A stretch of 64,000 nt of DNA from Gracilaria domingensis (Eukaryota > Rhodophyta > Florideophyceae > Gracilariales > Gracilariaceae), in the NCBI GenBank assembly GCA_022539475.1, contig VCMS01000041.1, positions 124,001 through 188,000 on the forward strand. Reading direction: 5' to 3'. Below the pieces are notes generated by a model, which saw only the letters and a program-made list of their open reading frames with translations, was not told where the DNA came from and made no database searches. This document shows, in pieces, positions 20,517-58,943 of the stretch; position 1 is the first letter of the stretch, and each line of letters begins with the position of its first letter. A program made the translations under genes and the position numbers.

Positions 20517-20585
20517 AGATAGTAGCATAAATTTATTGTTTATTACATTGTTACCTTTACGTGTTATCACGACTATATTCTCCGT

Positions 20586-22555: not shown

Positions 22556-22988
22556 CCGGATGATATTCTCCAGATAACCGATATTAGAATTCCGAAACCT
22601 AAAGATGTCCGTTTGATACCCTCTCGATGTCGCCACAATATACGTAAATGATTCTCAGATCATGCATGAAGTATGTCCAAATGATAACCACCTGATACGC
22701 ATATGATGTATGAAGAGGTATCTTTTGGATTTAGTAATTTCCGAATGATGCACCATGGATTTCCGGACATCCATGAGATATATCGCCATGCATCATATGA
22801 ACATCTTTCGAATAGTTTTTGTACTTTGAAAGTGCATGTAAATGACATCAATTAGGCGCATCCAACGGAATACCACGACAAATCATTAGAATATCGTCGA
22901 TGCGCAAAAGATATCCAACTGATATCCGATAGATGTCCTAAATTTTCATGGGATGGAAATCCATTGCGCATCAATTTATCTCACAGGG
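22556..22988. repeat. MITE-like repeat B, copy 2
   Basis: Second copy of the 433-434-bp repeat (see 7,543-7,976). It starts ccggatgatattctccagat and ends tttatctcacaggg. It is closest in its first 60 bases to the copy at 34,332. Flanks differ from the other copies, which supports independent insertion. Confidence 0.7.
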
Positions 22989-34200: not shown

Positions 34201-34331
34201 TCTATGTGAGCCTCAATGTGTCTCGGATGACATGCTTGTCATGAATGAAAGAAGAAAATAGAACCAACACGGTACGCGCAATGCTTTTGGCATGCTCTAC
34301 CGCAACAGACACCGAGAGAGGTGGATTGTTG
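31217..34331. other. Region with scattered open frames, none recognised
   Basis: Several frames of 60-150 codons occur: 31,853-32,065 plus, with FEEYFQDVATRRHVMFTED; 32,441-32,896 plus; 33,130-33,555 minus; and 33,956-34,261 plus. The last has ECDMDPEELVAAEVAHIGAV and looks the most protein-like. None shows a domain or flanking logic. 32,100-32,440 is plainly non-coding. Confidence 0.3.
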
Positions 34332-34765
34332 CCGGGATGATATTCTCCAGATAACCGATATTAGAATTCCGAAACCTGAAGATGTCCCTTTGATCCCCTT
34401 TCGACGTCCACAGAATATACGTAAATGATTTTCAGATGATGCATGAAGTATATCCAAATTATAACTGCCTGATACGCATATGATGTACGAAGAGATATCT
34501 CTTGGATTTTGTGATGTCCAAGCGATGCTCCCTGGATTTCGGGATATCCATTGGACATATCTTCGTGCATCATATGAATATCTTTGGAATAGTTTTTATG
34601 CATCCAAAGAACATGTGAAGGGCATCAACTAGGCGCATCCAAGGGGGTACCACCGCATATCATTCGGATCTCGTGGATGTGCAGAAGATATCCGACTGAT
34701 ATTCCATAAATGTCCCAAATTCTCATGCGATGGACATCTATCGCGCCTTACTTTATCTCACAGGG
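34332..34765. repeat. MITE-like repeat B, copy 3
   Basis: Third copy of the 433-434-bp repeat. It starts ccgggatgatattctccaga and ends tttatctcacaggg. Length is within one base of copies 1 and 2. Confidence 0.7.
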
Positions 34766-34959
34766 ACAAAACAAATGAATTAATAGACTGGGACCCGGAT
34801 TGTGCACATAAGCGCAAATTAAAGCGAAGGAAAGTAACCACACATGGAAATAAAACGACCAAGTATAGCTTCAAAGGCGCACGTCTCTGCGAATTTGGTT
34901 TCACCGCGATTGTTTAGATGCATCACCGAAGTGTTCAAAAGCATTCTGCAGTTGTTGAA

Positions 34960-39003: not shown

Positions 39004-39705
39004 AGTGCAAATCTTCGTGTCACATCATTTCTTTACATTTGAGTCTCTTTTCCCTAGAGACCTATCATTCTACTATGGTACTTCAGGTATTGAAATTGTC
39101 TATCACACGAGGAGAATAAAATCTTGGGTTTCTGCTCTTCTGTGAGTTGTTTATCGGCTACTAAAATCACGTTTCTGAACCCAATCTCGTACTGGTGTAG
39201 TATAGATACCGCCTACATTATTGGAGCAGAATCCGTTCTCAAACCCTAGTAGAATCATTTTGGCCTAGGGTGAATACGGGAATTTAGCGTGTATACAGCT
39301 TTATTTAGAAAATTAAGTGTCCGAAATCGGGATAAGTAGAAATAGTGCATGCGGTAGCTGTCATTTTGAACGTCTAATTCTCTAAATAAACCTGGAAATA
39401 CCCCTTATATACCACGTTTCTTTCTTCTAGAGAAATTGACATGATTTCGAAAGGTAATAGCCCTCTTCTTGGACTGTTCTCGTAAACATACCTTTTCTAC
39501 TTCTTGTAGCGGCTTTGGACTACTGAAAATATATATGTGTCCATGCACTGGGGCCCAGTATGAGTCATGGGAAGATGCATTTGCGACTAGTAAATCGATC
39601 CTAATGTGTACTATGTTTGGTCTCTAAAGGGCAAGGAGGTATTTTTAGAGCAAAGCCACATGTGTGGGGATGCACCTCAGTGCTTTCCATATCGTCTCTC
39701 TCTCG
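39004..39705. other. AT-rich region, no gene seen
   Basis: Non-coding; no repeats recognised. It ends where homology to the short composite unit begins at 'tgcagatgctag'. Confidence 0.4.
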
Positions 39706-40183
39706 TGCAGATGCTAGCTTTTGGATAAAGTCGTCCAGAAATTGGCAAGGGTCGTGCAGTAAAGTTTTTGAAAAAATATCGAGATCAATTATTTCAAAAT
39801 CTGGAGATAATTGCTTGGCTCCTCCATAATCGCTGTGCAGTAAATACTGGTGGGTTTTTCACTCGTGCTCGTCCTTTAGTCGCGGGCTACCTGAAAGGTA
39901 TTTCCCGAAGTCTAGGTTCAGTTTCCATTAAGATGCACATTACACGATACCTTCTGCGGAATGATACGCTGCAACGCATGTAATAGTGGTGATAGTACAG
40001 ATGATCCCATTGTGAAATCATACCGCTTTATTCGTATCTATTCTTCTATCGCACGCTTTTGCTGACCACTACTTCGCTATATTACATGTACCATTCCCCC
40101 ATGATGGAGCGGGTGTAGGCGCAATCTGCGGCAGCTGCCGCAGACTGTACCTGCACCAAGTGCGGTATCGGTAGAACACATAT

Positions 40184-40248
40184 CCCTACTTGATGAACCG
40201 AGAGGATGAGGCGCGAAGCGCCTCATCGTCTCGGCTTCTCAAGTAGGG
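40184..40248. repeat. Conserved hairpin in unit left region, long copy
   Basis: The inner stem gagaggatgaggcgc with GAA loop is the same as at 9,278-9,310, with one mismatch in the right arm. Here it extends through an outer stem, ccctacttgatgaacc against ggcttctcaagtaggg. Partner of the short-copy hairpin. Confidence 0.7.
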
Positions 40249-41772
40249 AACCATGCCCAGATGCATACGCGTTGCACTTTCAATTCACCTGTAACTCGTG
40301 AGCTACGTCCGCATCAAAAGTTATTTACTTATATATGCAAGCACAAAGTATCCATAAGTTAGCTAATGCTCCATTGGATACATTTCAAATACGATGGAAC
40401 GTGCCATTGATAAAGCGAAACAGAAACGTTGCGCTAGAAAACTCAAGAGACCTAGTAAATCGCAAACGGAAGAAGAAGAAGGAAAGGGATCGGTTAGATT
40501 AGCAACAATCCATTCATCGTAAATTGCGAAAGATGGCGAAGCCAGAACTCAAAAGCAAGGACACCAAGAATGCCCATGCAGCAAAAATACCGCAAGATGC
40601 GATAAACGAGAGAGCAGCCTATGTCGCAACAAAGTACGAGAATCTTCTATTCCGCAAGCCAGTCAACCAAGATCGCCAATGCAGGAAGATCAACGTAAGA
40701 CGTGAGAAGAGAGGGGAGCTTATGAGGCAATCAAGTCAAGCCATATCGCCAATGCACCAAAAATAACCCAAGACGAGAGAAAAAAGAGACGATCCTATGG
40801 CGCAACCTAGTCAACCAAGATCGCCAAGAAACCAAAAGAAGCGCAAGATGCGAGGAGCTAGAGACGCCTACGGCGCCAAAAAAGGAATCAAGATCGGCAA
40901 TACAGCGTGATAGGTTACACGAACAGTCAGAGATGGATCTTGAGAGACGAAATGAAACTGGTTGCGTACTTACCGTCGTCAGGGACGTCGGAAGAAATAC
41001 AAGGAACGCACGTCAAAGAGTGGTTACCTTCAACCACGTTAATGGGAGTTGCAAGACGAGAACAAGATGAAACATATCGTAAGCAGAACGTAGTTGAACA
41101 AATGGAACGCGTTGGAGGGTGAAGACGGGAACCCGGTAACTCAAAGCTTATTTTCTGCCGTTTACATGTCGCACAGCGCGAAAAAACGTTGTGAGGTTAG
41201 GTTGGTTTAGAGCAAAGATACGTGGAAGGATATGGAATAACGTACGAAAAGACTGCACGGAATACATCCGCGAAATACGGATGATGTCCGCTTTATGGAG
41301 GCTTCTATTAAGCGGACATGAACCTCATGCGCTTGAAGCGTACCTCATTCTCTCCGCCATCTACTTTGTATCGAGTGCGAGGGCGGAAAAAAGTACCACG
41401 GAGCAGAGTAGAACGCGAGGATGTGAATGGCACGGATCACGACGGTAACGGAAGGCCGCACGTCGGACGGGCGCCGGCGCCGGCGGAGGGAAGAGATTTA
41501 TTTTTCTGGGCGAGATTGGACAGGTGTACAGCGTACAAAGTTGCGAAACCACAGGTTTATTAGCAGTGGTAGATAATACGAGAAGTATACCCTTGTGTTG
41601 AGGTTGACGTGTACCTACGTTCCATTTTGAACGAAAGCACGTTATTTAAACTCAAATTATATTCTCCGTTCTCAACTTGACGTCGATCTTGACTGTCGCC
41701 CGACCTCCTTCTTCCTTCGGACTACCTTCTTTTTCCGTCTTAGTCGTCCTTTCTCGTCCATTTCTTCTTCCC

Positions 41773-44700
41773 ATGGTCTACTGCTGTACACATACGAAGC
41801 CTGGATGCCGGTTCGTTACTCCTCGAGGAGTGTTATCTCTTCAACAGCATGTTAATTATTGACCGTTTGGCCTGAAAGCCGGGCTGGAAGACGACAATAC
41901 CTGGCCCATTCGAAGATGCAAGCCTCTCAAGCTTTTTGCGCCGGCGTCGGCATCTTTCGAAACGGTCACTGCCCCTTGTGGCCTTCCCGAGCCTCCGGTG
42001 TCCGAGGACATCGTTGACCCCACTCCGTGCGCTCCTCCAATTCCAGACACTTTGCATTGATTATCTCCTTCCCCGGGTCCCGCGACATTAGAGCGAGAAC
42101 ACGGAAGCAGTTCCCGCCCATTGCGTTCTGAAAAGGCCCTCGGTGATTTCCATATGTTTTATCTCACGGTTTGTCTCGCTTCAGTAGCTTCCAACCTCAG
42201 TCATAGTGAAGCAGATGAGCTATTTGGGCTACTTCACGACCAGCGATTTTCGCAAAGGCGATTCAACGAGACCGTAACCAGTTCCAAGCGCTGTAGAGAA
42301 ATGGAGAATGCCATTTTCGAACGATATGCCTCAAAAGACAGTTTCAATCGAAGAACTGTCTCGCCAGAAGGATCTAAGTCCAGCGCCACCCTCTACACAA
42401 GAGACCCTGTTCAGACACTTGTCAAACAGCTGCAATTGGCTGACAACGAAGACACATTCTTCCACCCTATACTTCAGACCCACTCCACGAAAATATCTCA
42501 CCCCATGTTCGGCTGTCTCGCATGAGAGGCCACCTCAAAACGTAAGGAAATGGTCATGGACTCGTTGGATGGTAGAATAGTGTGGTACTCGCAAGAAATA
42601 AGTTACAGTGAATCTTTCGTAGGTCTTCTGCAGGTATACACCGATAAGTCTTCAACAACTCTAAAGAAAACATCGGTTACCGCCTATCCTCTTCACCTCA
42701 TATTTCTCAACTTCTCCCTCGAGCTACGCCGTAAATGCATCCGTTATGACCTCATAGTAGTGGCATACTTCCCTACCACACTGATCGGGGTTTTGGCATC
42801 TGAAGCAGACGCAATGCCATTCGTTTCTAGCAAGTCTCTACGCGAGTCCAGGATGCAAATCCTTCAAGAATCTCTTCGTCAAGTCCTGGAGCCCATTCTA
42901 AATCTCACGCAGAAAGGTTTTCAGTTCATCGGTGAAGACAAACTAAGTCGAGTGTGCCATCCTCTGCTTGCAAATTATTGTGCGGATATTCCTGAGGGTA
43001 AGGGCATTCTGTCTCTTCTTCATGGGACCAAAACGCAAAGCCCATGTCATAGATGCAAAGCCCCTGGCTCATATTTATGCAGTCATGTTCCCCCTCATTC
43101 CTTGGAGGTTCTCAAAAGCACACGAAAAGAATCCGAAAGACATACACAGCTATCTTACAACATGCACAAAAAGACGAGGCGGAAAGACGTCCACGTCGTG
43201 CGAGGGAGAGGATATCTCAGGGGGATACTCTGATGCGTTCAAATTCCATTTCTATCATTCCTTCGTTCCTCGAAACTCCCGTAAGCATTAGAATGGTTCT
43301 GGAATTGTCTCCATACAGTCTGTTCTGATTCGAACCGTTACACAGCTTGCATCTCGGCATCTGGAAGCTGATAAAAACGGCCACAATCGAGAGACTACAG
43401 TCAAACAACCTGTGCACCGCAATAGGAACATCTGCATCGCGTTTATTTCGAACGATACGAACCCAACTCCTCAACCATGCACACGAAATCCTAGCTGCCA
43501 TAGAACGTGATTCTCGTGCCAAACGTTTACCTATCGATTTCTCCACGCAGGAGAAAGGCAAATCTTTGAATTGTATCTTCACGAAAGACGGTCTCCGCGG
43601 AATGCTGGAGTCCAAAACCTACAACGCTCTTGACATGTTCTTCTCCTTCATAGGAGCATTCTTTGACACATTCTTTGGAGAACAGGACGTTGCCCCAATC
43701 ACAACCATCTTCGCTCAGTACTCGGACTTGCATTCGACTTTATTCAGATATAATCGTGCCGTACTGGTCTGAAAGCTCTTTCCTGCGTCTTAGATCGGAG
43801 ATTGAAGCCTTCAAGCGTTCCGAAACAATGACTCTGGCGATTCTTCATCCTCTCAGACTAGGAACTTTGAAGTTTCATCTTCTCGATCATCTCGTGGACA
43901 AATTTCGCCGTCTGGGAAGTATCTAGTACTACGATGCAGGCATATAAGAACATGCACACCTGCTATTTAAGAGACACCACAGAAGAACAGCAACGGCTGT
44001 GGAGGAGACTATTCGCTCCATTGAGCACGGACATGTTGTAAAGCAATGGAATGGCAATACACCTCACCAGCGTAATCCAGGTTTACCAGGAACTTCCAAA
44101 CAGCTCCCTCGATTTGCAATAAGAGGGCGTTCTTTCACTTTACGAGTTCTCCAACATTGTGTTTCAAGTACGTCCAGTTTAAAAACATGGGCTGCTGTTA
44201 GAGAGATGTTCTCAAGTACGGACACAAGGTCGATCATTGACCAAATTGGTGAACAGGCCCTTCCTCCTTTCCTCAGTCTCGTGAAAGAAACACTGGATGA
44301 ACACTCTGTTACATACTTCCCAAAAAAGACAAGGATAACTCTGGTGAATTTGGACCTCATGAAAGGCAGTTTCGTTCCGACTCTTGAACACTTCGATTCG
44401 TCTTCTAAGGCCCTTAAGCTGGGACGACCCAAATACCGCATCATCCAACGAGTCTTCACTTCTCCATCATTTGGTCCCAGTAGAAAGCCAAAGTTTACAA
44501 CTGTATTTGTACGCGGAGAAGATTCAGAGACTTTTGTTGCCCAGGAAGTCGCTCTGATTCGAATACCTCTCCTTGATTCTGCACTTATCGCACCAGAGGT
44601 GGCATTCGTCTCGTATTCCGAGGTTTTACCCCCGCAACAAACATCGACCACATATTGAAATGCATATCTTTACGGTGAGCTACAAACGATGAAAAGAACC

Positions 44701-45050
44701 ACACTCTTCCGTTCCCTCGTCATTCCAAAGCGGAGACTATCGTAGAGTTACCTCCTTGGTACGGGATGGTTCCGGCTTCTGCACTACAGGGAACTGTCCA
44801 TGTTGTTCGATCAAACTACCCTGCTGCACCTTTTTGTCCTCCACTTCAATGGTTTCAATAACGATTCTACATCAATCGATTCTATCATGATTCAGATGAA
44901 AGAACAACTGAGCACGTTGATTTTGTACAGCCTTACACATTAAGGGCTCCATCCTCTACATGTTCACCTTGTGGTGCCTTTTCTTGGGATCCTGTGCTAC
45001 TTCCGAAGTCGTTCATGTCCATTTCCTTGAACTCCATATCCCCTTCCTAG
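41773..45050 (+). pseudogene. Plavaka-type (CACTA superfamily) transposase, copy 2
   Basis: Same gene as 10,919-14,211, independently broken. It starts at ATG 41,773 (MVYCCTHTKPGC, finger partly preserved). A stop interrupts the finger near 41,861 (HVNY, stop), where copy 1 reads on, and a TGA sits at 42,523-42,525 where copy 1 has AGA. It keeps the base copy 1 lost near 11,482, so TRDPVQTLVKQLQLAD is in frame. VYTDKSSTTLKKTSVTAYP carries the catalytic Asp. Frame changes occur at 43.1-43.8 kb, with a stop near 43,926. The block LKFHLLDHLVDKFRRLGS is intact. Its TAG stop (45,048-45,050) overlaps the stop of the convergent coiled-coil gene. Copies 1 and 2 carry different lesions, so both came from an active ancestor. 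Confidence 0.75.
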
Positions 45051-47305
45051 CATTCACCAACAAAACAATCGCTAATAGACCCCAATCTCCGGCTCATACT
45101 GTCAATAAAAAATTGTTCTTTCACAGTGAGGTAAAGTCTTCCGTTTGACGGCATTCGATATCCAAATGTACCCTCTCTCATGTCATTACCAAGAACCTTA
45201 GTCCAATCTTCCGTTTTCTTTCCATAATTATGAAATTCGCTGGAATTGGTCTTCATGACATGTTGCCTAACATCCCCGAGAACATTCTTTAAACACACAG
45301 GCAGCAGTTGGGCAAACTTCTTTGTAAACAGTTTCTGTCTCTGGCCACTCCTTGATACATCCGTACTTAGAAGGCTCACAACGGTCAACACCCAAGCGTC
45401 AAAACGTGAGAGCAACAGTATTGTGCCATTTAAAAAGGTGCCCGTATCCATGTCTTCCACATCATACCCAATAAACTTCTTCAGTACTTGTACCCCGACA
45501 CGGTTGCGGAAGAATAAGTTTTGATCTTCCGTCGGCCTATCCTCTACATTGTCCGCATTGAAGTACTTTAGACGAACAAATCGGGCCTTTCTCTACCATG
45601 AAGTGTTCGGTACACCATTTTCGTCAAGACGCAGTATGTTCTCCTGCGCTTCCTTCAACTGCATTGTGAGTTTGTCAGCATTCTCTTCTACCAGCTTTGT
45701 TCTTCTCCAAATCAGATCGTACCCCAGGAGCGGAAATAGTTTATCCCTCGTATTTCTCTTCCGAACGCCCACGCCGTCACTCATGGTCTGCCGCATTCTC
45801 TGTCTAAGGCACATATCTGCACAAAGTTCCAGTACACACCTGTCGGTAAGACATGCTTTTCTAATACCTTCCCAGCTCAACTACTTCAACTCGCTTTCAA
45901 CCATTTTCTTCAGCAAAGCATCTAACTCCCCCTATACCGACGATTTGAACATGCCAAAACTGCCCAAGAGCTCCACGGGGTCTTTAGTAACCATGTATGA
46001 ACCACCTTCGTCCGGCTCAGTAAGCCCTTCTTCACTCTCAGTTGCGTCTTCCACCTTCTCGTCAAGGTTACCCCAATTTCGGGTGAGCGACTCACCTTCG
46101 CTCACTTGTTTCTCTCCTTGCCCACGTCAGCATGTTGTGATACACTGCTCGTTCAATCCCTCGAAACTCGTCGCACACCTCAATTTTATGCTTCTTTCGG
46201 ACTGTCTTCCAGGTTCACTAGCACGTGTACTTCTATCTCCCTCCTGTTTCAGTGCCTCCGTTAGCCCTTCAATGACTAGATCCTTCTCCTCAAGCCTCTT
46301 TTTCAAAGCCGTACTCTGCTCTTGGGCGACCTTCACTAGAATACCCAGAACTATCAAGTCCTCTTGTAGCGTCTTAACCTTTTTCAAGCAATCCAGTTCA
46401 TCTAAAAGATCACGTCTGTTCATAGAGGTTAAATTCACACCAGTGTGAATATCTTCTAGCGTATTCGGCGACAGGTCCCGGTAATGCCGCAGAATTCGGT
46501 GTTATCTCGTTATCGGAACTATCCTCATGTGCCATACCCTTAGACACGAGAGGCTGCAGGCGTTCTGTGTCCACCTTTGGCACGGCTCCGAGCTCCAACT
46601 CCCGTGTCTGTCGTCCTCCATGGCATCGTATATCAGATGAATTGGGCCTCGTACGAGCTGCAACGGCCCCCACTCTGGGAAGAGCGGAAGGTCGAGAAGT
46701 AACTCGCCTATCAGTCCTCTCTCGATTTCTTATTGTCTTTCACCCTTGTCCGAACCCACTGCGAGACATAATACGATTCATAGCGGCCCCAGTTCTAGAA
46801 GACAGAGAGAGACGTGACGATCTTAATATATTAGGGTTCTCACGACTTCCCGTCATTTTCCCTTGTTGTCCTGATCCACTGGGCGGCGTAACCCGCGCCC
46901 CAGTAGCTCCGGTCTTCGATATCAGCCGGGGACATGAAGGTTTTGGTGTCATACGAACCTCTTCAGTTCCTCCTACCATGCTCTCCTGTCCTGACCCGCT
47001 AGGCCGAGTTACCTCATCTTCTTGGAGAGCAGAGACAGATGCACGATTTGCATTATTAGCAGTTGACGGCACGACATCGTTCGCTGACCCACGAATTCTT
47101 GACGCAATCCCGGAAGACACTCTGCTGCGAGATGGGCGAGAAAGTACTGTAGAAGGACGCCCACTGACTCTCTCCTTCGTGGAGGAAGACTTCCGTTTAG
47201 GAAGTGCGGTGCTTGTAGCTTGATTTTATCATCCGATGCTCCTCTTTTCTTCTGTCCACTCTTGTTCCGCTGCGTACTATTTCGCTTTCTCGGCGTTATA
47301 CCCAT
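45047..47305 (-). pseudogene. Coiled-coil cargo gene, unrecognised
   Basis: A long minus-strand gene starting at ATG 47,305 (MGITPRKRNSTQRNKSGQKK, basic). Residues 1-250 or so are low-complexity, Ser/Arg/Pro-rich, with at least two frame changes (near 47,160 and 46,440). A coiled coil follows (LLDELDCLKKVKTLQEDL, KKRLEEKDLVIEGLTEAL, about 46,400-46,250), then a folded-looking C-terminus (RDKLFPLLGYDLIWRRTKL, FLNGTILLLSRFDAWVLTVV) to the TAG at 45,047-45,049. From 46,438 to 45,047 one frame is kept through four stops: TGA at 46,127, TAG near 45,939, TAG near 45,882 and TAG at 45,593. No family recognised; a DNA-binding accessory protein of the transposon is a reasonable guess. The short unit keeps only its last 50 or so codons. 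Confidence 0.5.
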
Positions 47306-47576
47306 GTTGTGGAGATAAACGGGGTAATGAAACGAAATAGTGGGAGGGAAGAGGGGGAGTGCATGGTTCAGATATTCCGGGAAACTCCGCAGTTCCTGCT
47401 TTTTAGGAATTTGAGGTGCCCACTGTGTCGCAAATATCGCCGTTACGAATAGATGAAGAGCTCCAGTGTATATGTACAACGCGTATTGCAGGCAGCTGCA
47501 ACATTCAGAAGCATATTTACTTTCTATTCGGTAATGCACTCATCTATTGCTTCAATGTCGAAGCCCAGTTCCAGGC

Positions 47577-50500
47577 TTATTGCTCTCCGTAGTCGAAAAA
47601 CAACTCCTTGCCCCTCTCAATATCTCTTACTGCTCTGCAACGAAGTTCTGCACATTGGCACTTCGAGTTCTGTTCGACTGGAGCTGCGATAAATCGGGAT
47701 TCCCGGCATGATATCCGGCGTCGTTAATGTATTCCTCGATACAAAAAGGCGCCGGGGCAATGTAGACTTCGATCTCCTTTCTATCTCGAGCCTGTCATGT
47801 TCTGTTCCTCAGGTGCAGGAACTCCGAACCAGTCACAGTGACCATGATAGAAAACAACTTGTACCGCACAGGAGTTGTTCCGAGACAGCCACTTCCATAC
47901 GTTAAGTGTCTTTCCTTCCGGTTCGTCAGATCCGTGTATACCGGAGTTCCATAAAAATGACAGATAGTTTCCCCAGCCAATATCTTATGTTCCGTGAACA
48001 CCGCCATACCAGCACGGGAATGTCGAATCTTAGAAGATGCTACATGTAAGCGATAGCGAATGGCTTCACCAGTCAACAGCATATGCATATCCATTAGATT
48101 CAGAGCTCTTCGGTACTTCTCGCCTCAAAGATCTACAGTAGACTGCGCAGAGTTGTCGCAAAACTCCCAGTCCCTCCAGTATCTTCCTAGAAACTGAGTA
48201 ATATGTGCAGGAATCACTTGGTACTGGGGGTATCCAAATGGAGCCTCCCATTCAACCCGACCTCGGTTCTGATGTGGAACGCGTTCATAAGTCGTTGAAG
48301 CAGCATCCACCACCTCCTGTTCAACCACGATATCATTCTTCCCCGTGAGAAGACCTTCGGCGATGACAGTCGTTATATAGTGCTTCGCATGGCTAAAACA
48401 TGCCCTATTGTTCTCGCACCCCAAGACCTTCCTATGATTTGTCAGCAATAGGCACGCCATACCCGTAGAAGACGTTCCTGCGAACATGTCCATGACAAGA
48501 TCACCCGATCTTGTGAAGCGAAATATCAACTCTTTCATCAACTCCCTGGACTTCTGCTCCGGTCTTATCTACTGCCCACTTGGTACTGAACTACCTGGCT
48601 CATTTACCTTCCATGTCAACCACTCAGCCGCTCTCGGTTTTGGCACCCGGTCAATTACATTCCTGTTAGCCGGGAAAGTAGAAGGAATGAAATTGTTCTC
48701 CTCAAATTGAGTAAGACTGGCTTTCTCCGATGGTCGCAATCCACGCTTCACCCCGTGAACGGCGTACTCCATTACGGGCTGTATCCCAAACTTCTGTGGA
48801 TTCCCGCCAACATTAGTTCGATCCCGGATGAACACCATTGGATTCCCATCCACTTTAAACGAAGGCATGAATTCTGGCTTACCTTCGGTTCCAGCGTCAT
48901 CTTTCGTACTCGCCGTTTCCGAAAGTATCCTGTGCCAAACATTAAACTGTGCCATGGCACAGAATATAATGAAGTGTCCACCTGACCGAAGCGCGGAACT
49001 TATTAAGTCTGCCGTACTTATCATGTCATCCTCACTGAAGACATCGTGAACACTATTCCGTTTACTCCTCTTCCTTCGAGTGTGAAAGGGACGGTCTGTT
49101 AGGACAAGCTGTCTCTCACCCCAAAAAATCTCACTCTGATTCACAAACGTTTCATGTGTGTGCTTCAGGTCCTTCATGTTACAGTTGTACTCTACAAAAT
49201 GCGACTTTCTCATTCCCTTCCACGCCTTGTCCATATTCATTCGAAGGAGAATGGATATCCCCTTCATGAGCGGCTCAATACCAGTCTTTTGGATGTTGTA
49301 CCCGGTAATCCGAAATTCATGCTCCGCACGATTCACCGCCTCCTCGAACTGGGAGCTATCGGAGCTCACGAGGTCCATATACTCTCGACGACGTGGGGGT
49401 GGGGCAGACTTGGTGGAAGAAGGTTCGACATTACCGGAAGTTTTAAAAGGATTCGTCAGTTCAATATCGGGTTTTGCGTGAATTACCGCATTAAAACCTG
49501 CCGCATGACGCATACCCTGTATCGGTTTCCATAGCAACTTCGAAAAGTTTTGATATCGTTCAGACAACTCACTGGAGTCAGAACCAGATACGGTATCCAT
49601 CCGTATCTCCGAAAACTCTATCCAGTTCCTCATCTGCTGAACCCGCAAACTATAGAGGCTATCGTGGGTGCATATGGTTTCGAGGTCTGTCAAAAATTCC
49701 TTTGCCAGTATTCGGAGGTTTGTATCGCATTAATCGCTCAAGATCTTCATTGATCCACTAGTACTGCTTTGTGGCACATCCTGTGCTTTAAATAGAGTGC
49801 TCCGGCTTGGCGGCGCATAACCAAACTCCCGTGTCTCTAGCGCTGTATACTTCAACGTTTGCCTATTCATGTAAATATATGGTTTTACCATGTGCTGAAC
49901 GTTCGTATATCCAAGATGAGCCGCAAAACAACTCAATGCTCATACGACTTCACTGATAGCAAATCCCAATCGATCACAGTTCTCTTTGGAGAACGACGAA
50001 AAAGTCGGTATGTACACTGATGCATGGTTCACTTTTCGTTTCTTTTTCGGTTGTTTCTTCTTCATCATTCTGATGTTGTCGTTCTCTCCCATTATGTGGC
50101 CGAAGTATGATAAGTATATAACAACCTCAAATGGGATCACAGCTGTTGGCGGGATAGACACTGTCGTCTTCAGAACCTGCTTTTTCCTGGTCATGAAATA
50201 ACCAACCAGCGATCGCACCGGTAGGTATATACCCATATTCATAGAGAGAAGGAAAAATTGCGGAGTCTCTGGTCCTTATCCCCGTTCTTCTTGTCAAGAA
50301 GCTTCGTTGCAAGATATAGTTGCTCCAAAGCTTTGTTATTCACAACACTCTTTTGCAGCTGTTGCAGTGTCAAGTTCTGCAGCTTCTTGGAGTTAGTGGC
50401 CTCCTCAAACGTCTTCTTTGCCTCCCGAATATCACTATACTTCTCGGCGCAGAACTCTATTAGCCCTCTAAACCCGACGTCCGGTGGGCGATCAAGGCAT

Positions 50501-50622
50501 CCATCGCTGTTTTCCAACGCATCGCGAAGAACCAAGAAAAGTGTGAAATATGCATAAAATGGCGGAGGCGGAGCACTCATGTCGATAGGATGTATCTCCT
50601 CTCCATCATCGGTGGAATTCAT
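47577..50622 (-). pseudogene. Beta-class DNA amino-methyltransferase fused to a SET-like domain, with stops
   Basis: A minus-strand gene of about 1,000 codons from ATG 50,622 (MNSTDDGEEIHPIDMSAPPP). One frame shift or intron lies near 50,240; then a single frame runs to about 47,600 through TGA (49,940), TAA (49,730), TAG (48,569), TGA (48,125) and TGA (47,795). Domains: helical N-terminus; a monopartite nuclear signal PKKKRKV (about 50,050); motif IV LVLTDRPFHTRR (about 49,090; DPPF/Y expected); motif V region SGGHFIIFCAMAQFNVW; RPEQKSRELMKELI; and motif I LVMDMFAGTSSTGMA (about 48,470). Motif IV before motif I is the beta-class N4/N6 order (N6_N4_Mtase). A SET-like domain follows (SKIRHSRAGMAVFTEHKI, AGETICHFYGTPVY, YINDAGYH, SANVQNFV, then after a shift ELFFDYGEQ). 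The TAG at 48,569 could sit in a 39-nt GT-AG intron. Confidence 0.65.
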
Positions 50623-50637
50623 CGCTTCAGCGCAAAC

Positions 50638-52743
50638 AACGGAGGCGAGCCGTTAAATAGCGACTTACGCTGGGCACCCCCGCTTTCGGCAGCTCCTCCC
50701 AGCGCACTTCCAGTCCCGTCCGTGTACGTGTCTGATTGCTTCTGAGGTCTGTGTCCGTGTCGCTTTGAGCTGGTGCGATAGCGTGGCGGGTCGGCCACGT
50801 CGCGATTCGGAATTACTGCAAATGTCGCGTATTGTGCTAATAGTCGCGGATCAAGTGAGTGTGAAGCGCTAGTTTTGTCTATTTTGATATATTTGCACGA
50901 GTTGTGCAGCGTAATCACTGCGAGAAGTGCCAAGGGGCGTATTTTGAGAGATCTCCAGAGGGTGCCAGAATGTGGCCAAAACGTGCCCGCGGACGGAGAG
51001 GGGGGGGTGGGTCGTGTTAGGGTAGGTACCCTAACACGACCGGACCCTTCCGCCCGCGGGCACGTTCTGGCCACATTCTGGCGCGTTGCGGACACCTCCC
51101 AGAACACGCCTCTTGCCACTTCCCGCACACACCGCCTCAGCTCAGCGCACCAATTCGTCTTCTCCATCCTCCAAACGCTCCCTAATTCTCACACGCACCC
51201 CACTTACTGTCTCTGCGATCACCATATCCCTTCCGAGTTGCTACACTTCATTGAATCACTGACTGAACCTGTACCATTGAGTGGTTCCCACCTGTTCTAC
51301 ACGCTTCAGCAGGGATGTAAACCACTCAATGGTAGACTGAGAGGGTTACTCAGCGAGCAGGGCACTACTCTGTTCGTTGAGTAGCCTGGTATAGTAGTCC
51401 TTATTTCTTTCTTGCTCAAGGCCACCTGCAGTATATGCAACAGGCAGTTGCAATTGTGCAACATGGCACTTGATCGGCGAGCGCGCGAGGGAGGTGCCCC
51501 ACTACAGAATCTACGGGAGGAGGCGAGGCGTGAAAGAAGCAACGAACTGTGACGATTTGTGTTTGTGGCACAATAGTGGTACGACGAGAGAAAGAGCACG
51601 TACGGAAGGGCGTGAAGCGCGTTCGCAACGCCCTTCACACCCTGATGTCAGCAGCGCTCGGTGCCGTGGGTTCGGAGTGAGGCTGTTGTTTCGCGCGGTG
51701 GCTGGCGAGCACAGCGACTGCCCTCCGATGGGCTGCATGTGCGTAACGAACTTACGGCTCCGGGATGGAACTGCGTCGTTTGTAGTCGATGACTGGTGTA
51801 AAGATTAGTTTACTGAAAGATATAAGTTGTTTCATGGCTTACCACTAGACTACACAATACTGCTATCGATGGCGCTCTGACGTATTCTTGCCCTAGGGGC
51901 GCCCGCCGCGCCTGCGCATGCCATTTCCATCGGCGGTGCATCCAGTGCGTCAGCCCCCGTCGTCGAACACGGAGCAGAATGCATAGAGTCGCCCACATCC
52001 TTGACACTCGACACCACCTTCTTCTCTCCAGCAGTTGTGGTTCGCGTGGGAATTTGGGAGCGTTTGGAGGATGGAGAAGACGAGTTAGTGCGCTGAGGTG
52101 ACGCGGTGCGTGCGGAAAGTGTCCGTCGGTGTGTTTTGGGAGGTCTGGGGAAGGTGCCAGAATGTGTGCAGAACGTGCCCGCGAGCGGGGTGGGGAGAGT
52201 CGGTCGTGTTAGGGTAGGTACCCTAACACGACCGGACTTCGCCGCCCGCGGGCACGTTCTGGCCGATTTTTTTAAAAAGGTGAGATTTTATGCCCTCGGG
52301 TGGAGGTGTCCAGTCGTGCTAGGGTACCTACTCTAACACGACCGACGCCCCCCTCCACCCGCGGGCACGTTCTGACCACATTCTGGCACCCTCCGGGGAC
52401 CTCCCAAAACACACCCGCGCGGTACTTCTTGCAGCGATTTCGCTACACCCGCCCTCCGCTACGCTGGGGCCGCTGTCCACGTGTAGTGGAGGGAGTCGGT
52501 TGTACATGAATGAGTGCACTTTTGACTACTATGATAGTATTATGAGCACTTGAAGAGCAAGAGTAGAGAACGCGACCATTGCTCGCGTGAGTCATCGTTG
52601 CGCGTACGCCATGACTCTAAAGCGTACAATCAGCGAGCGAGCGGCCATAGACAGGACACGGACGAGACTGGCAGTGCGCGGGCAGGAGCTGCCGAAAGAA
52701 GAGGTGCCCAGCCTAAGTCGCCATTTAAAGCCTCGCCTCCGTT
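50638..52743. repeat. 2.1-kb inverted-repeat block with nested TTAGGG palindromes, copy 2
   Basis: Bounded by inverted repeats: left 50,638-50,730 (aacggaggcgagccgttaaa, gctgggcacccccgctttcg) and right 52,662-52,743 in reverse. Inside are two palindromic blocks (50,905-51,135 and 52,118-52,440) in opposite orientation. They carry one and two copies of the 16-bp-arm hairpin, tcgtgttagggta / taccctaacacga (centres near 51,025, 52,215 and 52,326), with 'cccgcgggc' palindromes. The spacer has an extra 14-bp-arm hairpin at 51,273-51,333 (accattgagtggtt). The left edge is 15 bp from the methyltransferase ATG and the right edge about 140 bp from the next gene's first ATG, so it sits exactly in the divergent promoter interval. 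It may be a nested non-autonomous element or a control region. Confidence 0.7.
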
Positions 52744-52886
52744 CTTGTATCGTCCAGAGCAAGCGTATTGTGGATCTACACCTTTCACTGCAATAACTGT
52801 TCAACATAAAGCCGACTGGTGTCCGAAAGCGTACGCAAAGCGTGACTCCTCGTACACGGCGGAGCACTCGATCATTGTAAGGTGGA

Positions 52887-53360
52887 ATGCGGGTTTCTCT
52901 GCAGATGGGTACTGAGAAAGAAGGAAAGTTGATTGTCGGGGTAGCGTTGTTGCATGGAGTTGGAAGTGTTCTACGCTACGAGTCGAACTGGAAGCAATTC
53001 GATCCAGGTCTTGTTGTGGTTCATAATATTATCATTAGTCGAAGCGGTCAGACGTTCTACACTTACCGTGCGGAGGGCCTGGATCTTCCACAATACATCA
53101 AGGATCTCCGGACGGGCGCTCCATAGGATGAAAAAATGATGGAACTGGTGACAGCCAGCATTTCGGCGTCTAAGGGACGAACGGTGAGCGCTATGAGTGC
53201 GGTGATGACGCCGACAAGCCGCACGGAGCCAATTCGAAGTTCATCAACGCCGAGGGGTAGCACATTAGTACCACCTCCGCGCGCGCCGGTCCGTCGTCTG
53301 TTACGAAGCGGATTATGGAGACGAGATCATCCCCAGCTACGAAGCAGACAGGCCAAATAA
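52887..53360 (+). CDS. Possible 5' exons of the ParB/dioxygenase gene
   Basis: Two open stretches in the same frame as the ParB-like ORF. 52,887-53,126 starts at ATG (MRVSLQMGTEKEGKLIVGVA) and contains HGVGSVLRYESNWKQFDPGL and AEGLDLPQYIKDL. 53,136-53,360 is Ser/Thr/Arg-rich. A third stretch in another frame (53,315-53,520) has SKETVQHETAVQEEEDEII. Together they could form the N-terminal part of the downstream gene through short introns, or they mark frameshift damage. No domain recognised. Confidence 0.35.
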
Positions 53361-53504
53361 AGACTTTCTCCGCTAAGAAGTCCACTGGGTCAAGAAGAGC
53401 ATCTCCTGCGATAAATCAGACCATCGACACAAGGGGATCTTCCGCGTCAAAAGAGACGGTTCAGCACGAGACGGCTGTTCAAGAAGAGGAAGATGAGATC
53501 ATAA

Positions 53505-54506
53505 AAGGTCCTCTTCCAGACGCGGATACGCAATCCACACAATGGAGCTGGTTCATCTCTACCTCAAACTGCACCACAAACTGCGGCACAAGAGGAGGAC
53601 GATGTCGTTGTGCTTCTGTCCGCAAGAATGGAACGTTTAAGTGTTTCTGGCGAGCGGTCTGGAACACAAGGGGCATCTACTTGGAGCAAGACGTACAGAC
53701 GAATACGTCAGAAGGTCCCAAAGGTGAACCTCAATCACTACCGGATGGTTGTCGTTACTGTTGACATCACTCTCGTGGACTCTACGCCTAATTTAGTGCG
53801 TAGAGTAAACAAACGCCACGTTGAAGCCGTTATGAAGAGTATGGAGGAGCCGGGGATATTGCAGTCGATGGATTCTCCAGTGGTGGCCTTACAAGATGCT
53901 ACTACGGGAGAGAGGGATACCGACAAGGAACGTCTTACGAAGAAGTGCTTCATTGTGGATGGTTTGCATCGTCTGAAAGCTATACAATATTTGGCAGCTA
54001 CTGGTGCATCGGAGTGGAAGAGATTAATCACGTTTTGGCGTTGCAATCTGTTAATACGAAGAGATAGGAGCCCCATTGGGATGAAGGAATTGTTATGTGT
54101 TGCCTTGTACCTCAATGAGTCGACGAGTACCATGCGAAGGATGATGTTTGCAGACAAGATACACTCTATAGTTAGTGTTGTCGACATTCTAATTGAAGAT
54201 GTTGATGGGGTGACGCCGGCAGATGTGGATCCTTCAGAAGTGACAGAAGTGTTGAAGGAGAGCCAACTGATTGGGACTGTGCAAGAGCATCAGTATCTGA
54301 GATATGCCAATGTCGCCCTGCAACTCATGTCTCGTGAGGGAATGCTGGCCTATTTAGAGGATATATGTGAAAGTGTGAGTGACATAGGGCTCACAAATCT
54401 GTCCCATGCTCCGCTATATGTTTTGGATGCCGAGGAGTTTTCCTTCAATCTTGATTGTCTCCAGATGTTTCTATTGAAGGGCAAGTGGACGAAGACAAAG
54501 CAATAG
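53505..54506 (+). CDS. ParB/sulfiredoxin-fold protein
   Basis: An open frame of about 330 codons. After a short acidic patch with a SUMO-interaction-like string (EEDDVVVLLSA, about 53,575), it shows a ParB/sulfiredoxin-like domain: LVRRVNKRHVEAVMKSMEE, GILQSMDSPVVAL, then CFIVDGLHRLKAIQYL at 53,949-53,990. The last carries the GxHR signature that in ParB and sulfiredoxin relatives forms the nucleotide-binding/active-site turn. A helical region (SPIGMKELLCVALYLNES, RRMMFADKIHSIVSVVDIL) follows, as the helical part follows the N-terminal domain in ParB-like proteins. The stop is at 54,504-54,506. Only 43 bp separate it from the dioxygenase frame. A GTGTGAG donor at about 54,373 and a 'tttcttttgtaatagagcag' acceptor at 54,530-54,549 could fuse the two in phase. 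Enzymatic role unknown. Confidence 0.6.
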   Translation, partial: KVLFQTRIRNPHNGAGSSLPQTAPQTAAQEEDDVVVLLSARMERLSVSGERSGTQGASTWSKTYRRIRQKVPKVNLNHYRMVVVTVDITLVDSTPNLVRRVNKRHVEAVMKSMEEPGILQSMDSPVVALQDATTGERDTDKERLTKKCFIVDGLHRLKAIQYLAATGASEWKRLITFWRCNLLIRRDRSPIGMKELLCVALYLNESTSTMRRMMFADKIHSIVSVVDILIEDVDGVTPADVDPSEVTEVLKESQLIGTVQEHQYLRYANVALQLMSREGMLAYLEDICESVSDIGLTNLSHAPLYVLDAEEFSFNLDCLQMFLLKGKWTKTKQ

Positions 54507-54549
54507 AAAAGCTTTGAGGAGGTTCGAGGTTTCTTTTGTAATAGAGCAG

Positions 54550-56729
54550 TGTCTCTGTTCCGCGCGGCTCGAGCAGTGACGAATGAACTGAACGAGAAAG
54601 AGTCGATGGAAGTGTTCCTGAAACGCGAAGTCAGTCTTTCTGCTCCATCGAATGAAGATGACGTTGAAGACCCAGACAACAACGCAGCTGTGTATCAGTT
54701 CCTTTTGGGACAAGTTGTGAACTTCAACACATTGCCGCGTGTTCGGAGCAGGACGAGCTCAATTAGAACTGCCACGACTTCCGTTCAGAATCGATTGTGG
54801 ACGATGCTCAAGGTAATTCCGCCCCCCGCACCAGTGAAGCAGTCCGTGACGAAGAGGAGGACTCCCGCTGCTGCTGCTGCAACATCTGCCAGTGAAGAAG
54901 GGGAGCCGCGAAGAAGTGCACGAGAACGGGCGCAGGTGAGTTATAGGGAAATTGAGCACGGCCGAAATCGAGGTGCCATAGAAGTTCTGGATAGCTCTGA
55001 AGAAGAACAGCGGGCTCCGCCGAGGAAGAAACGGAGAAAGAATTTCACACAACATATGAGATCTACTCTGAGCAGCATGACACCGGATGACCTGATGTCT
55101 CAACTAAATGAACATGTGCTGAGAGGAAGGTCGATGACGGTTCAGTTCGTGGCATTGGAAGAGGGAGCGAATGCAGAGAACGCAGGCAGTTCTGCATTTG
55201 TGGATGACGAAGAGCTTCTTTCTGTGACAGTTCCACGGGTTGTCCCCGTCGAGAAAGATGCTGCGCCAGACGATCAGCAAGAGACAGATTGGGGGTCTTT
55301 TGATGACGAGTTACCTACAGCTCTTCCGGAATCTGAAGAGCACGGACTTGTTCGAGGAGACCCATATGATGGCCAATCGAACCCATCATGGTGCGGGTAT
55401 GTCAAACTGAGACCGCAGAACTGGCAAGGAAAGAACGTAATTGAGCACAAGGACACCTGGCTCAGAGTCATTCACTTGCCGAAGGCACATAAGTCGGAGC
55501 TGCTAAGTGTCTCAGAACTCAGAGATGTACACCATCTTGTGTTTTGGCACGCTGCAAGGGCTGAACATCGCCTACGGGCGGAGACATTTGGTATGCAGTA
55601 TCCTCGTACTCGGTGGACAGGTATGGATGATGAAGAGGGGCTGTGGGTTGCTGCGAAGGAGCATGACAAATTTGGGCAAATGTTCTTCGCCCAAATCCAG
55701 GCTGAGCTAAGGCAGAATGGATTTTGCGTGCTTGATGGCTTTACGATGGATAATTGTGTCCCTAAATGGGATGAGTTGGAAGAAGTTTGGGAGTTCGGAG
55801 ATGTGTCAGGGAAGTTGGTAGACTCCTTCGAGAATGGTTATGGAGCGATGCCGGATATACCGAAAGAGGAGGAACAGAAATCGTTTGTTCAAATCATTAA
55901 CGATGATGAAGGATGGAACGACGGGAGAGATGGAACATTTGAGGGGAGAGTGATGTCGACAGGTTGGGGTACGGTGGAGAAGCCGGAGAATAATGGGGAG
56001 CTCAGGTGGGTTGTAAGGGCGCGTGCTTTACTTGATGTTCGAATGGGTACAATTGCTGCGGCTTTGGGACTATGGGACAATGAAAGGGAAGTTATGAAGA
56101 TGTACACTGCGAAAACTCGTGCTAGATTTCTGGGGACCACGTGGAAGTGCAAGCGCCAGACGCTGCACACCGACTTCAGTGGTCTGACTACAAAGGAAAC
56201 GATGAATACTGGTAACTACAGGTACTTTGTAATGGCCTCTGAGAAAGAGGGCTTTTCTCTCTGGGTGAGCCCTGAAAGCCATCAACTGGTGAGGATGAAC
56301 AACCAACAACTGCAAGCGATGTCAGAGGTGTATCCAGCCAAGATGATAATCATCCCTCCGTACTCTATATTCGTGGGACGTGGTGATGTGACACATGCTG
56401 GAGCAAGTGGGAAGGACAAGGTGGATAGGCCTGAGTCCATGGATTTGCTGGTTAGATACCACATGTACATGGTCCCAGAGGGCTACGCACTACCTGATGC
56501 TGTTCATCGGGTACGGGATTTCCGACCCATGTTTGTCAATGGTGACGAGGAGAAGGAGGCGGAGGATGAACTGTTGTCCGATAAGGAGGGTGGGGCGGTT
56601 GACATGGAAGAAGACAAAGTGGTCTTGGAGGTTGGTGTGGAAGCGAAGGCTGGTAGAACCGAAGTGCTCGAGAGCAGTAGTGATGACGATTTGCCAATAA
56701 TGAGGCTGCGAGCGCATCGAACTGGATGA
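54550..56729 (+). CDS. 2-oxoglutarate/Fe(II)-dependent dioxygenase-like protein
   Basis: A 726-codon intact frame, counted from GTG 54,549. There is no in-frame ATG at its start, so it is likely entered by splicing (acceptor 'tagagcag' at 54,542-54,549). Residues 1-330 are charged and low-complexity, with SARERAQ and a basic patch PRKKRRKN. The catalytic domain spans about 380-660: a GFCVLDGF entry (PhyH/P4H style), metal-binding H540-T-D542 (QTLHTDF) and H616 (GDVTHAG), and R636 (LLVRYHMY) placed to bind 2-oxoglutarate. The double-stranded beta-helix core lies between (FVMASEKEGFSLWVSP, MIIIPPYSIFVGRGD). The C-terminus is acidic. Such enzymes hydroxylate or demethylate proteins, nucleic acids or small molecules. 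Beside a DNA methyltransferase and a ParB-like gene, a nucleic-acid substrate is attractive but unproven. Absent from the short unit. Confidence 0.7.
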
Positions 56730-57051
56730 GATGATTAGTAAGTTAAGAGTGTCTTGCGAGTATTAAGATTAATATATTATTGTAAGACTATACATATGAA
56801 CATGAAAAAGGTGCGGCAGGCTGGTAATTGAACAAATGTCATATGTCTCTCGTCCGGTTGCGTCTAATGGGAACATGCTCGGTATCGTCAACATCATTGG
56901 TGACACCACTGGTATGGCATTTGATATCGCAATTGAACATGAAGCTTTCTACCACTTCTGAAACTGCACTTAAGGTTGGTTTCAAGAGAAGTATGAAGAT
57001 GAGATGTCTATGCAGTACCTGTCTATGCCGGACTTCTAGCAGTATGCCCCA

Positions 57052-57464
57052 CAAGAAAGTTTTTCATTTTTGTGAGTGCAAATGGAGTGCATCTTTCGGG
57101 GTGTTTAGCCTCCAACTGCACTCCGCCTGTACGCCATCCGCGTTCCAATGTGAAACCCTTGGAAGGGCATTTTAATTTTTTAATAATTTATTTCATTATT
57201 GTGAGTGCGCGTGGAGTGCAAACTGAGATCGTGGGGGGCGAAGTACGGACAATGTGGGCGCAGATGGAGTGCAACGTGTATCTCGTGCACTCCAAGTGCA
57301 CTCCATGTGCTTAGCGGCCGTCCTCCAATGTGACACCGCGAAATTAGGCTGCAATCGCTCATTGCACGCACCCAATGCTTCATCCGTTTGGCATCCATGT
57401 ATCATCCACTGGTGCCATCCAACCTCAAATTGCACTCCCATTTTTCCAAAAATTTCTCATAGGG
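57052..57464. repeat. MITE-like repeat A, copy 2
   Basis: Second copy of the repeat at 3,605-4,017. It runs from 'caagaaagtttttcattttt' to 'ttttccaaaaatttctcatagg'. It lies between the dioxygenase gene and the HAD gene and supplies the upstream part of the open frame that enters the HAD gene, which is therefore not the gene's own start. Confidence 0.65.
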
Positions 57465-58321
57465 ATGGTGACTGTATCAGGAAAAATGGCAAAGGAACAG
57501 AGAGAGGGTTGGCGGAAATTTCACCCAATATCTTGTCTAAGTTCATATATGCAGAAGGTTACAGTATATATAGTTCAGTTGATGGAACGTTGAGAAGAGA
57601 GGGAAAGTCAATTCCCGAAGAAGTTGTGAAGTGTACGAAGTTCATTGACGAACGTGTTGGTTTCGGACTTGTTATAGGGGGTGATGTGGGCGATGTGGAG
57701 GGGAAAATGGAAGGACTCGGAGATTATAAGTTTCGTGTGTCGGCGAATCATGGAGCTTTAATCCGCTTCTCTGACGACAGAGAAATTAAGGCTACATTCA
57801 ATGATCACACTCTTGACCACACTGACGGACTACTGTTCCTGGCAAGGGATTTGAATAGGAGGCATGGTATTGTGAATGATGATGAGAAACCGTTCGTGGA
57901 GAGCAGAAATGATACTGGCATTCCCAATTTCGTGTGCAACAAACTGTGGCAGTGGAGAGAAGAAGTGGATTCTGCTATTTTGGACCTGTTGAAAAAGATG
58001 GATGCGTTTGTTATCTATCCCGGCGATAGAAGTTGCAAGATTTTGGACAAAAGAGACACAAAAGGAAGCGGAGGAGCAAATCTTGTGGATATTGAACAGA
58101 GATTTATTGATGCGGATGACGTTGTGACGTTCGGAAGTGCTTTGGGCGACGATCCTTTGTATGAGGTAGGCGTGTACGGCGTTCACGTCAAAGAAGAGTG
58201 TATCCCGCCTGGAGTACACAACCTGTTCGAAAGCGTGGAGGATGTGCATTCGAAAATTATGCTGGTGGCTCTATTGTACGGCTACGAGGAAAAGCAGTAC
58301 GATAAAACACACCAAGAATGA
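57465..58321 (+). pseudogene. HAD phosphatase paralogue with altered nucleophile
   Basis: About 270 codons related to the gene at 16,934-17,806. The likely original start is MVTVSGKMAKEQ at 57,465, in a different frame from the body (shift near 57,490-57,520), so the N-terminus looks broken unless spliced. The body reads SPNILSKFIYAEGYSIYS, then SVDGTLRREG: the DxDGT nucleophile Asp is Ser (S-V-D-G-T). Motif II region is FGLVIGGDVGDV (the intact paralogue has ATGRD), and motif IV is FGSALGDDPLYEVGVYGVH against FGNASNDGPLYE. The rest is open to the TGA at 58,319-58,321. It is therefore catalytically dead as a phosphatase even if expressed. Tail to tail with the fragment at 58,377. Confidence 0.7.
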
Positions 58322-58376
58322 TAAAAGGGTATTGGGATGTATACGATCCTTTTATTAGTGAGATTTCATATCCTAA

Positions 58377-58943
58377 CTAAATATTAGGGACATCGTAGCA
58401 CTTAAAACAAATTTCGAGAGCATTTCTAAACCGTTGACACTTGCATTTTGTGTACCAGTACAGTTCTGCCACCCTTTTGATGGTCTCATGCACGTCTTTC
58501 ACCCCATCAACAAGATATGTTACCGCTGCTGGATCGTCGTCTCCCTTGAAATAAACTGCCATGGTTGCCATTTCATATAGAGGACCATCATTCGAAGCAT
58601 TTTGGAAAGCAACGATTGTATTTGTTCCGAATTGGGGGTCGTTTTCAACCAAGGGCAGCGCACTACTGTTTTTCGTCAAAAGAATGTCTCCTATGTCTCA
58701 GTTTTCATCTTGAGGGTACCCAACCAGGTTCGGAAAGGATGTCAAAACTTTTGAAACACCGGATTTAACTTCTGGTTTCCACTTCGACAGTCCATTGTAT
58801 GTGAAGTTAAGGACTCCACTGTCTTTTATAGTGCTCACAACTGCTTGTTGATGCTCTTCGTGAAGTCCGTGCGATTCATTTAATGAGAGTGCAAATCTCT
58901 CAAGTTCGGCTGCACATCTTTCGTAGCCTTCCCTGTTAAGGTC
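58377..58943 (-). pseudogene. HAD phosphatase gene fragment, 3' part
   Basis: Closely matches the 3' two thirds of 16,934-17,806 (SNDGPLYEMATMAVYFKGDD, KCKCQRFRNALEICFKC). A TGA near 58,696-58,698 replaces the Cys codon of the intact copy (DEN, stop). The 5' part, including DxDGT, is missing beyond 58,943, where transposase-like sequence takes over. Confidence 0.85.

Follow-up and report, generated by a model that had tools for sequence, protein, structure and literature searches.

We analyzed a 64,000-nucleotide stretch of DNA from the red alga Gracilaria domingensis (C41:124001-188000, in an assembly of 77.9 Mb and 680 contigs), which we call the window. It contains two copies, A and B, of one family of Plavaka-type transposons, mostly 87–90% alike by self-comparison. 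The gene order of the family is a transposase (+), a coiled-coil gene (–), a DNA methyltransferase (MTase) fused to a SET domain (–), a palindromic block, a gene combining a ParB-like part with a probable 2-oxoglutarate (2OG)/Fe(II) dioxygenase (+), two HAD genes (+ and –), a Rossmann-like gene (–), and a further coiled-coil gene (+). Copy B carries both cargo units, is ~10% diverged from the copies with which it was compared, and has decayed, with a degenerate left end and a missing right part. As we discuss below, the transposase, MTase-SET, ParB-dioxygenase, and other genes almost certainly form one mobile unit. A first-pass annotation of this DNA had proposed a mobile unit at 45047–56729; the unit stands, but it reaches far beyond that interval.

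Main features of the two copies
8780–22554 (+): copy A, end to end, 13.8 kb; internal-deletion derivative that has lost both cargo units
8780–8794 (+): left terminal inverted repeat of copy A, CGTCTGTCTCTTGCA; TC flank at 8778–8779
10796–14094 (+): transposase of copy A, Plavaka-type, interrupted by a single frame change and a single stop
14392–16196: palindromic block of copy A, flanked by two deletion joints
22540–22554 (–): right terminal inverted repeat of copy A, 12 of 15 bases matching the left end in reverse complement; TC flank at 22555–22556
39695–58943 (+): copy B
41650–44933 (+): transposase of copy B, Plavaka-type, with three frame changes plus stops
47547–50622 (–): MTase-SET gene, broken by two frame changes and several in-frame stops
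50594–52746: palindromic block of copy B, symmetric, between two divergent cargo genes
53610–54506 (+): ParB-like part, predicted ParB/sulfiredoxin fold plus a helical part; ends in a stop in copy B
54549–56729 (+): probable dioxygenase part of the same gene, with an HxD...H...R motif

Transposase and termini of the family

The Plavaka-type transposase named in the first-pass annotation is present, although the window copy is broken and lies to the left of the interval first proposed. An open homologous frame in contig C60 matched PF18759 over residues 246–499 (E 2.8e-19; 70 bits, cut-off 26.3). According to the consulted sections of PMC12730594, Plavaka transposases carry a C(2)C and an H(3-4)H motif in the stretch from the second D to the last E; CHRC and HLLDH, found by eye in protein P0002, probably correspond to these motifs. 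The target duplication of 2 bp described below lies within the 2–3 bp range of Plavaka elements. The same sections give the ends of fungal PlavakaA as TGT..ACA and of PlavakaB as CATCA..TGATG, whereas the algal family ends in CGTCTGT...ACAGACG; the family is therefore Plavaka by its transposase and not PlavakaA or PlavakaB by its ends.

Both boundaries of copy A recur throughout the genome. In DNA searches with the left part of copy A (best 40 of 698 candidates scored), 39 other full-length matches started at window positions 8773–8782, and with the right part (best 40 of 938), 38 of 39 other scored copies ended at 22550–22559 and one at 22573. Allowing one mismatch, 537 left and 562 right ends were found genome-wide, compared with none for the reversed control pattern. 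We listed the first 100 matches for each of left ends, right ends, and dyad sites, and, for the 89 listed left ends on C1–C63, looked up to 45 kb away for a same-strand right end; 47 paired in this way, and the same rule gave nine wrong-strand pairs. The spans of these pairs cluster near 10.3, 13.8, and 22.3–22.9 kb, the last being the longest class of the family.

Identical 2-bp flanks bordered 25 of the 40 end-pairs examined for target duplications (from the 47). In the first 31 pairs, 20 had such flanks (shuffled mean 3.05, maximum 11) and none had a 3-bp match. We read these flanks as a 2-bp target duplication. Duplications flanked 23 of the 29 shorter pairs but only 2 of the 11 pairs spanning at least 18 kb (P 0.0007). 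Our first guess is that long repeats were misjoined in the assembly, because many copies are located at contig ends and the C60 block contains a long G run; recombination between copies, or age, may instead account for the difference.

Two further sets of repeats were noted. In each copy, direct repeats precede the transposase close to the left end (9363–10251 and 40551–40861), and members of a 440–455-bp repeat family, 82–83% alike, occupy 7538–7976, 22551–22988, and 34312–34768, with one of them abutting the right end of copy A.

Cargo genes between the transposon ends

Multiple results place the cargo within the element. First, C60 and C108 are collinear with the window through the left end, transposase, MTase, palindromes, ParB, dioxygenase, and HAD genes; in both, homology stops short of the right end, at positions equivalent to 19135 (C60) and 22009 (C108). 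Second, the genes keep constant distances from one another. Among the best-scoring copies (62 of 836 dioxygenase candidates, 150 of 471 MTase candidates, and 77 of 1266 transposase candidates), 22 dioxygenase-MTase pairs were closer than 15 kb, compared with ~3.6 expected at random in any geometry (62 × 150 copies), and in 21 of these, C100 being the exception, the MTase was upstream on the opposite strand at 5.2–7.5 kb. All 22 transposase-MTase pairs closer than 15 kb were on opposite strands and 4.85–5.04 kb apart (4.4 pairs expected at random), and of the 25 cases in which a left end and an MTase were no more than 20 kb apart, 23 agreed with the expected strand, the distance being 8.1–8.9 kb in 17 of these. 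Chance does not account for the arrangement that the first-pass annotation had noted: many contigs show it with unchanged order and spacing. Third, MTase or dioxygenase matches lie inside 11 of the tested end-pairs (C5, C6, C8, C23, C29, C34, C38, the minus-strand unit of C41, C42, C50, and C51), three of which have an intact 2-bp duplication: a 21.4-kb unit on C6 (dioxygenase), a 20.2-kb unit on C8 (MTase), and a 13.1-kb unit on C42 (MTase). End mapping, which had been put forward as a test that could refute the proposal, therefore locates MTase-SET, ParB, and dioxygenase between the transposon's own ends. The possibility that the cargo consists of host genes that happen to neighbor a transposon is rejected on the basis of the constant spacing to transposase and ends.

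Among 24 stop-free dioxygenase copies, the pooled ratio of nonsynonymous to synonymous substitution rates (dN/dS) was 0.47, compared with 1.25 and 0.84 when this DNA was read in its other frames; the pooled ratio was 0.35 in 12 copies of the transposase half and 0.55 in 11 copies of MTase-SET, some of them broken. Values for the window copy against other copies were 0.59 and 0.78.

The MTase-SET gene

A beta-class DNA amino-MTase with a SET-like domain, as annotated at first pass, is encoded by the element, although the window copy is broken and its motif IV is mutated to DRPF, compared with DPPF in C164. Other copies, such as the one in C164, have open frames of 1055 residues. The C60 copy matched N6_N4_Mtase (PF01555; E 2.4e-11) and SET (PF00856; E 2.1e-7), and the window fragment at 48125–48541 matched N6_N4_Mtase by itself (E 2.3e-7). 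In beta-class MTases of the N6-adenine/N4-cytosine type, motif IV (DPPY-like) precedes motif I, and the algal proteins have this order, with DPPF/DPPY first and then FAGTFST. The nearest solved relatives are DpnA, MboIIA, and CcrM. SET-domain proteins have NH and Y motifs; here GEELYFNYG is present and NH is replaced by IND. We consider it likely that the MTase modifies DNA.

A search of prokaryotic genome contigs with the MTase profile found five partial relatives. A viral origin of the cargo was considered and rejected: viral contigs contained eight partial MTase loci (22–49%) and no match to the ParB-dioxygenase profile. When PF01555 itself was searched against the assembly (best 150 of 328 candidates scored), 31 of 32 rows aligned from its position 1 were not copies of the window MTase. 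One member that we read, at C12:73600-76400 (L165), represents a second MTase-SET family, 38% identical to that of the window; this family and the 30 other PF01555 rows have open frames of up to about 1120 residues. The second family perhaps belongs to another element family.

The ParB-dioxygenase gene

The ParB-like and dioxygenase parts, annotated at first pass as two genes, are both present, the first by fold and the second by motifs only, but belong to a single gene. C60 and L028 encode them in a single open frame; the window copy has this frame too, interrupted by one stop at 54504–54506. A predicted structure, with a ParB/sulfiredoxin fold and a helical second half, supports assignment of the first part as a ParB N-terminal fold. 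In the second part, His889, Asp891, His965, and Arg985 of the HxD...H...R motif are invariant in three proteins of ~30% identity, suggesting that this part is probably a 2OG/Fe(II) dioxygenase.

A second protein search, with three ParB-dioxygenase sequences, recovered only the two Gracilaria proteins and lost two distant ones, and a sequence search of the PDB returned nothing meaningful. The nearest named proteins are from Gracilaria domingensis and are 95% and 89% identical to one cargo copy. Two NCBI entries of this species, P0003 and P0004, are cargo annotated as 'mediator of RNA polymerase II transcription subunit 15-like' and 'cell-wall-anchored protein SasA'; both gene models lack the dioxygenase core.

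The palindromic block and its dyads

Between the diverging MTase-SET and ParB-dioxygenase genes lies the palindromic block, where the first-pass annotation had placed it. Inverted arms of 91 nucleotides mark its edges (50635–50725 and 52656–52746), and the left arm adjoins the start of the MTase gene. Within it are 26-bp dyads with a variable 2-bp center.

Dyads in the window
14915, 15026, 15614, and 15848: copy A, the last with one mismatch
51013–51038: copy B, CGTGTTAGGGTA-NN-TACCCTAACACG, perfect
52205–52230: copy B, perfect
52315–52340: copy B, two mismatches

At up to four mismatches, there are three dyads in copy B, four in copy A, four in C108, and none in C60. At up to two mismatches, 1377 were found genome-wide, compared with none for the control. 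For the 50 listed sites used to count location and spacing (perfect matches only), 32 fell within end-paired units and 18 outside, and 21 of 31 close spacings were 103–114 bp. A perfect dyad was present in 11 of the 13 end-paired units on C1–C12, the two without one being long units.

Units that keep dyads include one of 6.4 kb and others of 10.3 kb without MTase or dioxygenase matches. In copy A, the joints relative to copy B (45231|50594 and 52671|57644) remove 45232–50593, which is the MTase unit, and about 52671–57644, which is the ParB and dioxygenase unit, and leave the block between them. A 10.3-kb unit on C8 has a left end, a transposase with ~0.9 kb gone around its 3' part, the block, and a 5' piece of the ParB-dioxygenase gene, followed by joints into the HAD and Rossmann-like regions; its right joint after the block differs from that of copy A. 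These two units therefore indicate that the block was retained while its flanks were lost. Founder effects may explain this retention.

Other genes and repeats

The coiled-coil gene named in the first-pass annotation is present as a remnant.

45047–45460 (–): small gene remnant downstream of the transposase, copy B; 219-residue frame in C60
46127–47539 (–): coiled-coil gene remnant, copy B; 503-residue frame in C60, coiled coil by eye
57633–58321 (+): HAD gene 1, copy B; start approximate
16285–16881 (+): remnant of HAD-IIB hydrolase-like gene 1, copy A; C60 homologue matches Hydrolase_3 (E 2.5e-4)
16934–18004 (–): HAD-IIB (Cof-type) hydrolase-like gene 2, copy A; C60 homologue matches Hydrolase_3 (4.8e-13) and HAD-SF-IIB (4e-11)
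18433–19680 (–): 415-residue frame, copy A; Rossmann-like by eye, no family match
21058–22086 (+): 342-residue frame, copy A; resembles a coiled coil by eye, with no family scoring above cut-off
57051–57464 (+): inserted repeat of 415 bp in copy B, 87% identical to 3604–4017 and absent at the equivalent place of C60 and C108

Outside the two copies, minus-strand frames at 23352–25338 resemble, by eye, part of a Ty3/gypsy-type integrase.

A proposed model of self-marking and its alternatives

The overall explanation that we favor, and consider reasonably likely, is that the family marks itself by means of MTase-SET, ParB-dioxygenase, and the dyads. In this model, the transposase would move the unit through its terminal ends, and the ParB part would bind the dyads, as bacterial ParB binds parS. 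Dyad-bound ParB would control both divergent promoters and deliver the dioxygenase to element DNA, where MTase-SET and the dioxygenase would write and edit a mark of the N6-methyladenine (6mA) or N4-methylcytosine (4mC) type, and perhaps a histone mark too. Marking would act in trans on the whole family, including deletion derivatives that keep dyads. Two observations temper the dioxygenase part of this model. The ParB-dioxygenase protein matched no Pfam family at E ≤ 1, TET/JBP included, and the AlphaFold model of the dioxygenase has a mean predicted local distance difference test (pLDDT) score of 31. Pfam recognition thus does not place the enzyme within TET/JBP, to which it may be distantly related; the balance tips slightly toward its acting on DNA. 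Moreover, when the dioxygenase open reading frame was divided into parts, dN/dS came to 0.39 and 0.48 in two of them, 0.77 over the motif core, and 2.06 for the tail (few changes), so that constraint is not focused where an active enzyme would predict. Whether the cargo benefits the element we regard as evenly balanced.

Binding of the dyads by the element's own ParB, suggested by their nearness to its gene and by its helical second half, is plausible but a shade short of an even call. The dyads could instead be operators of the divergent promoter only, bound by another protein or a host protein and unrelated to ParB, as their location in a symmetric block flanked by two diverging genes would suggest. 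We consider this somewhat unlikely, as dyads are kept by units without matches to either gene and a neighboring gene encodes a ParB-like protein with the helical second half.

Alternatively, the MTase-SET, ParB-dioxygenase, HAD, and Rossmann-like genes could be captured passengers with no role for the element. The HAD genes look metabolic, and units of 10–14 kb that lack MTase or dioxygenase matches are frequent, most of them with duplicated flanks, so cargo in cis is unnecessary for movement. Such loss is equally explained by action in trans, however, and open frames in many cargo copies, with pooled dN/dS below 1, make passenger status doubtful. We give similarly little credence to the most elaborate form of self-marking, a complete self-identity system in which ParB-dioxygenase clamps would load on dyad arrays, spread along element DNA, and together with MTase-SET place a modified base in trans on all members. 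Deletion derivatives would then survive by virtue of the array, which would serve them as an epigenetic passport, and the host itself would have no detectable C5 methylation machinery.

A TET/JBP-like dioxygenase that strips host 5-methylcytosine and thereby lets the element escape silencing, as has been proposed for fungal transposons, would find support in the TET/JBP genes of fungal Plavaka and KDZ elements (PMC12730594, consulted sections). The first-pass annotation had entertained an eraser role for the dioxygenase; its reading as an eraser of host methylation is now weakened. C5-methyltransferase (PF00145) matches numbered zero in the assembly versus 150 scored PF01555 matches, although positive controls for PF00145 were prokaryotic only, so that intron-split genes could be missed; the dioxygenase, as noted, lacks a Pfam match; and in copy B the C>T rate was 0.055–0.070 at CpG versus 0.029–0.050 at CHH, just 1.1 to 2.4 times higher in three segments, and thus gave no strong signal of 5-methylcytosine-type decay. 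We therefore regard an eraser as quite improbable. Finally, the clean joints of copy A, which lacks both cargo units, and the occurrence of some MTase copies without a transposase among the matches listed might suggest a separate mobile element nested in the Plavaka transposon, but this is very improbable, as the copy A joints flank a retained block, which fits two internal deletions rather than one excision, the C8 10.3-kb unit retains a 5' ParB-dioxygenase piece with a different joint, and spacing to transposase and ends is constant.

Relation to known systems

Elements of this design have precedents, which we cite from the consulted sections of each source. Sola1-1_Ec32 of Ectocarpus, 21.5 kb, encodes a protein with ParB and N4/N6 DNA MTase domains (PMC12477816). 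Like the Gracilaria element, it is a giant algal DNA transposon with an accessory gene on the strand opposite the transposase, a ParB-like domain together with an amino-MTase, and a self-marking proposal. It differs in having a Sola1 transposase and ParB fused to the MTase, in place of Plavaka, ParB-dioxygenase, and MTase-SET, and those sections of PMC12477816 mention neither a dyad array nor a dioxygenase. Its authors also cite red and green algal cases. A further precedent is provided by giant red-algal EnSpm elements that bear accessory genes (Petroll et al. 2025 Curr Biol, as cited in PMC12477816). These also have an EnSpm-related transposase and several accessory genes, and that set may already include relatives of the Gracilaria element.

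Fungal Plavaka, KDZ, and EnSpm transposons carry TET/JBP dioxygenases, and 2-bp duplications occur among them (PMC12730594). The fungal TET/JBP Plavaka and the Gracilaria element are alike in combining a Plavaka transposase with a 2OG dioxygenase, but the consulted sections do not mention ParB, and the Gracilaria dioxygenase is not recognized as TET/JBP. SET genes on HarbingerS and MuDR transposons are cited in the same source. In Amoebidium, Plavaka lies beside long gene-rich repeats of up to 50 kb, whose named cargo, unlike that of Gracilaria, consists of tyrosine recombinase genes (PMC11244446, consulted sections).

Bacterial ParB-parS systems (Noc, KorB, Spo0J) share the ParB fold and a gene near palindromic sites; by contrast, the 26-bp dyad is unlike parS, and the Gracilaria ParB is fused to a probable dioxygenase.

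The first-pass annotation had called the combination new. In the literature searched, we came across neither a fusion of ParB to a dioxygenase, nor a Plavaka element carrying MTase-SET, nor a dyad array that had been retained, but the idea of a transposon-borne ParB-MTase is already in the Ectocarpus Sola1 work (PMC12477816). With transposon-borne ParB-MTases and giant red-algal EnSpm elements already published, to the extent of the sections consulted, the Gracilaria element is a variant. It brings together MTase-SET, the fused ParB-dioxygenase, and a dyad array that deletion derivatives keep, all within a single transposon whose ends are defined and whose copies number in the hundreds. At least two annotated proteins of Gracilaria domingensis are cargo of this family. 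In a red seaweed, the family opens self-marking by a transposon to direct testing, and it provides a eukaryotic example in which mobile elements, and not the host, might write 6mA or 4mC.

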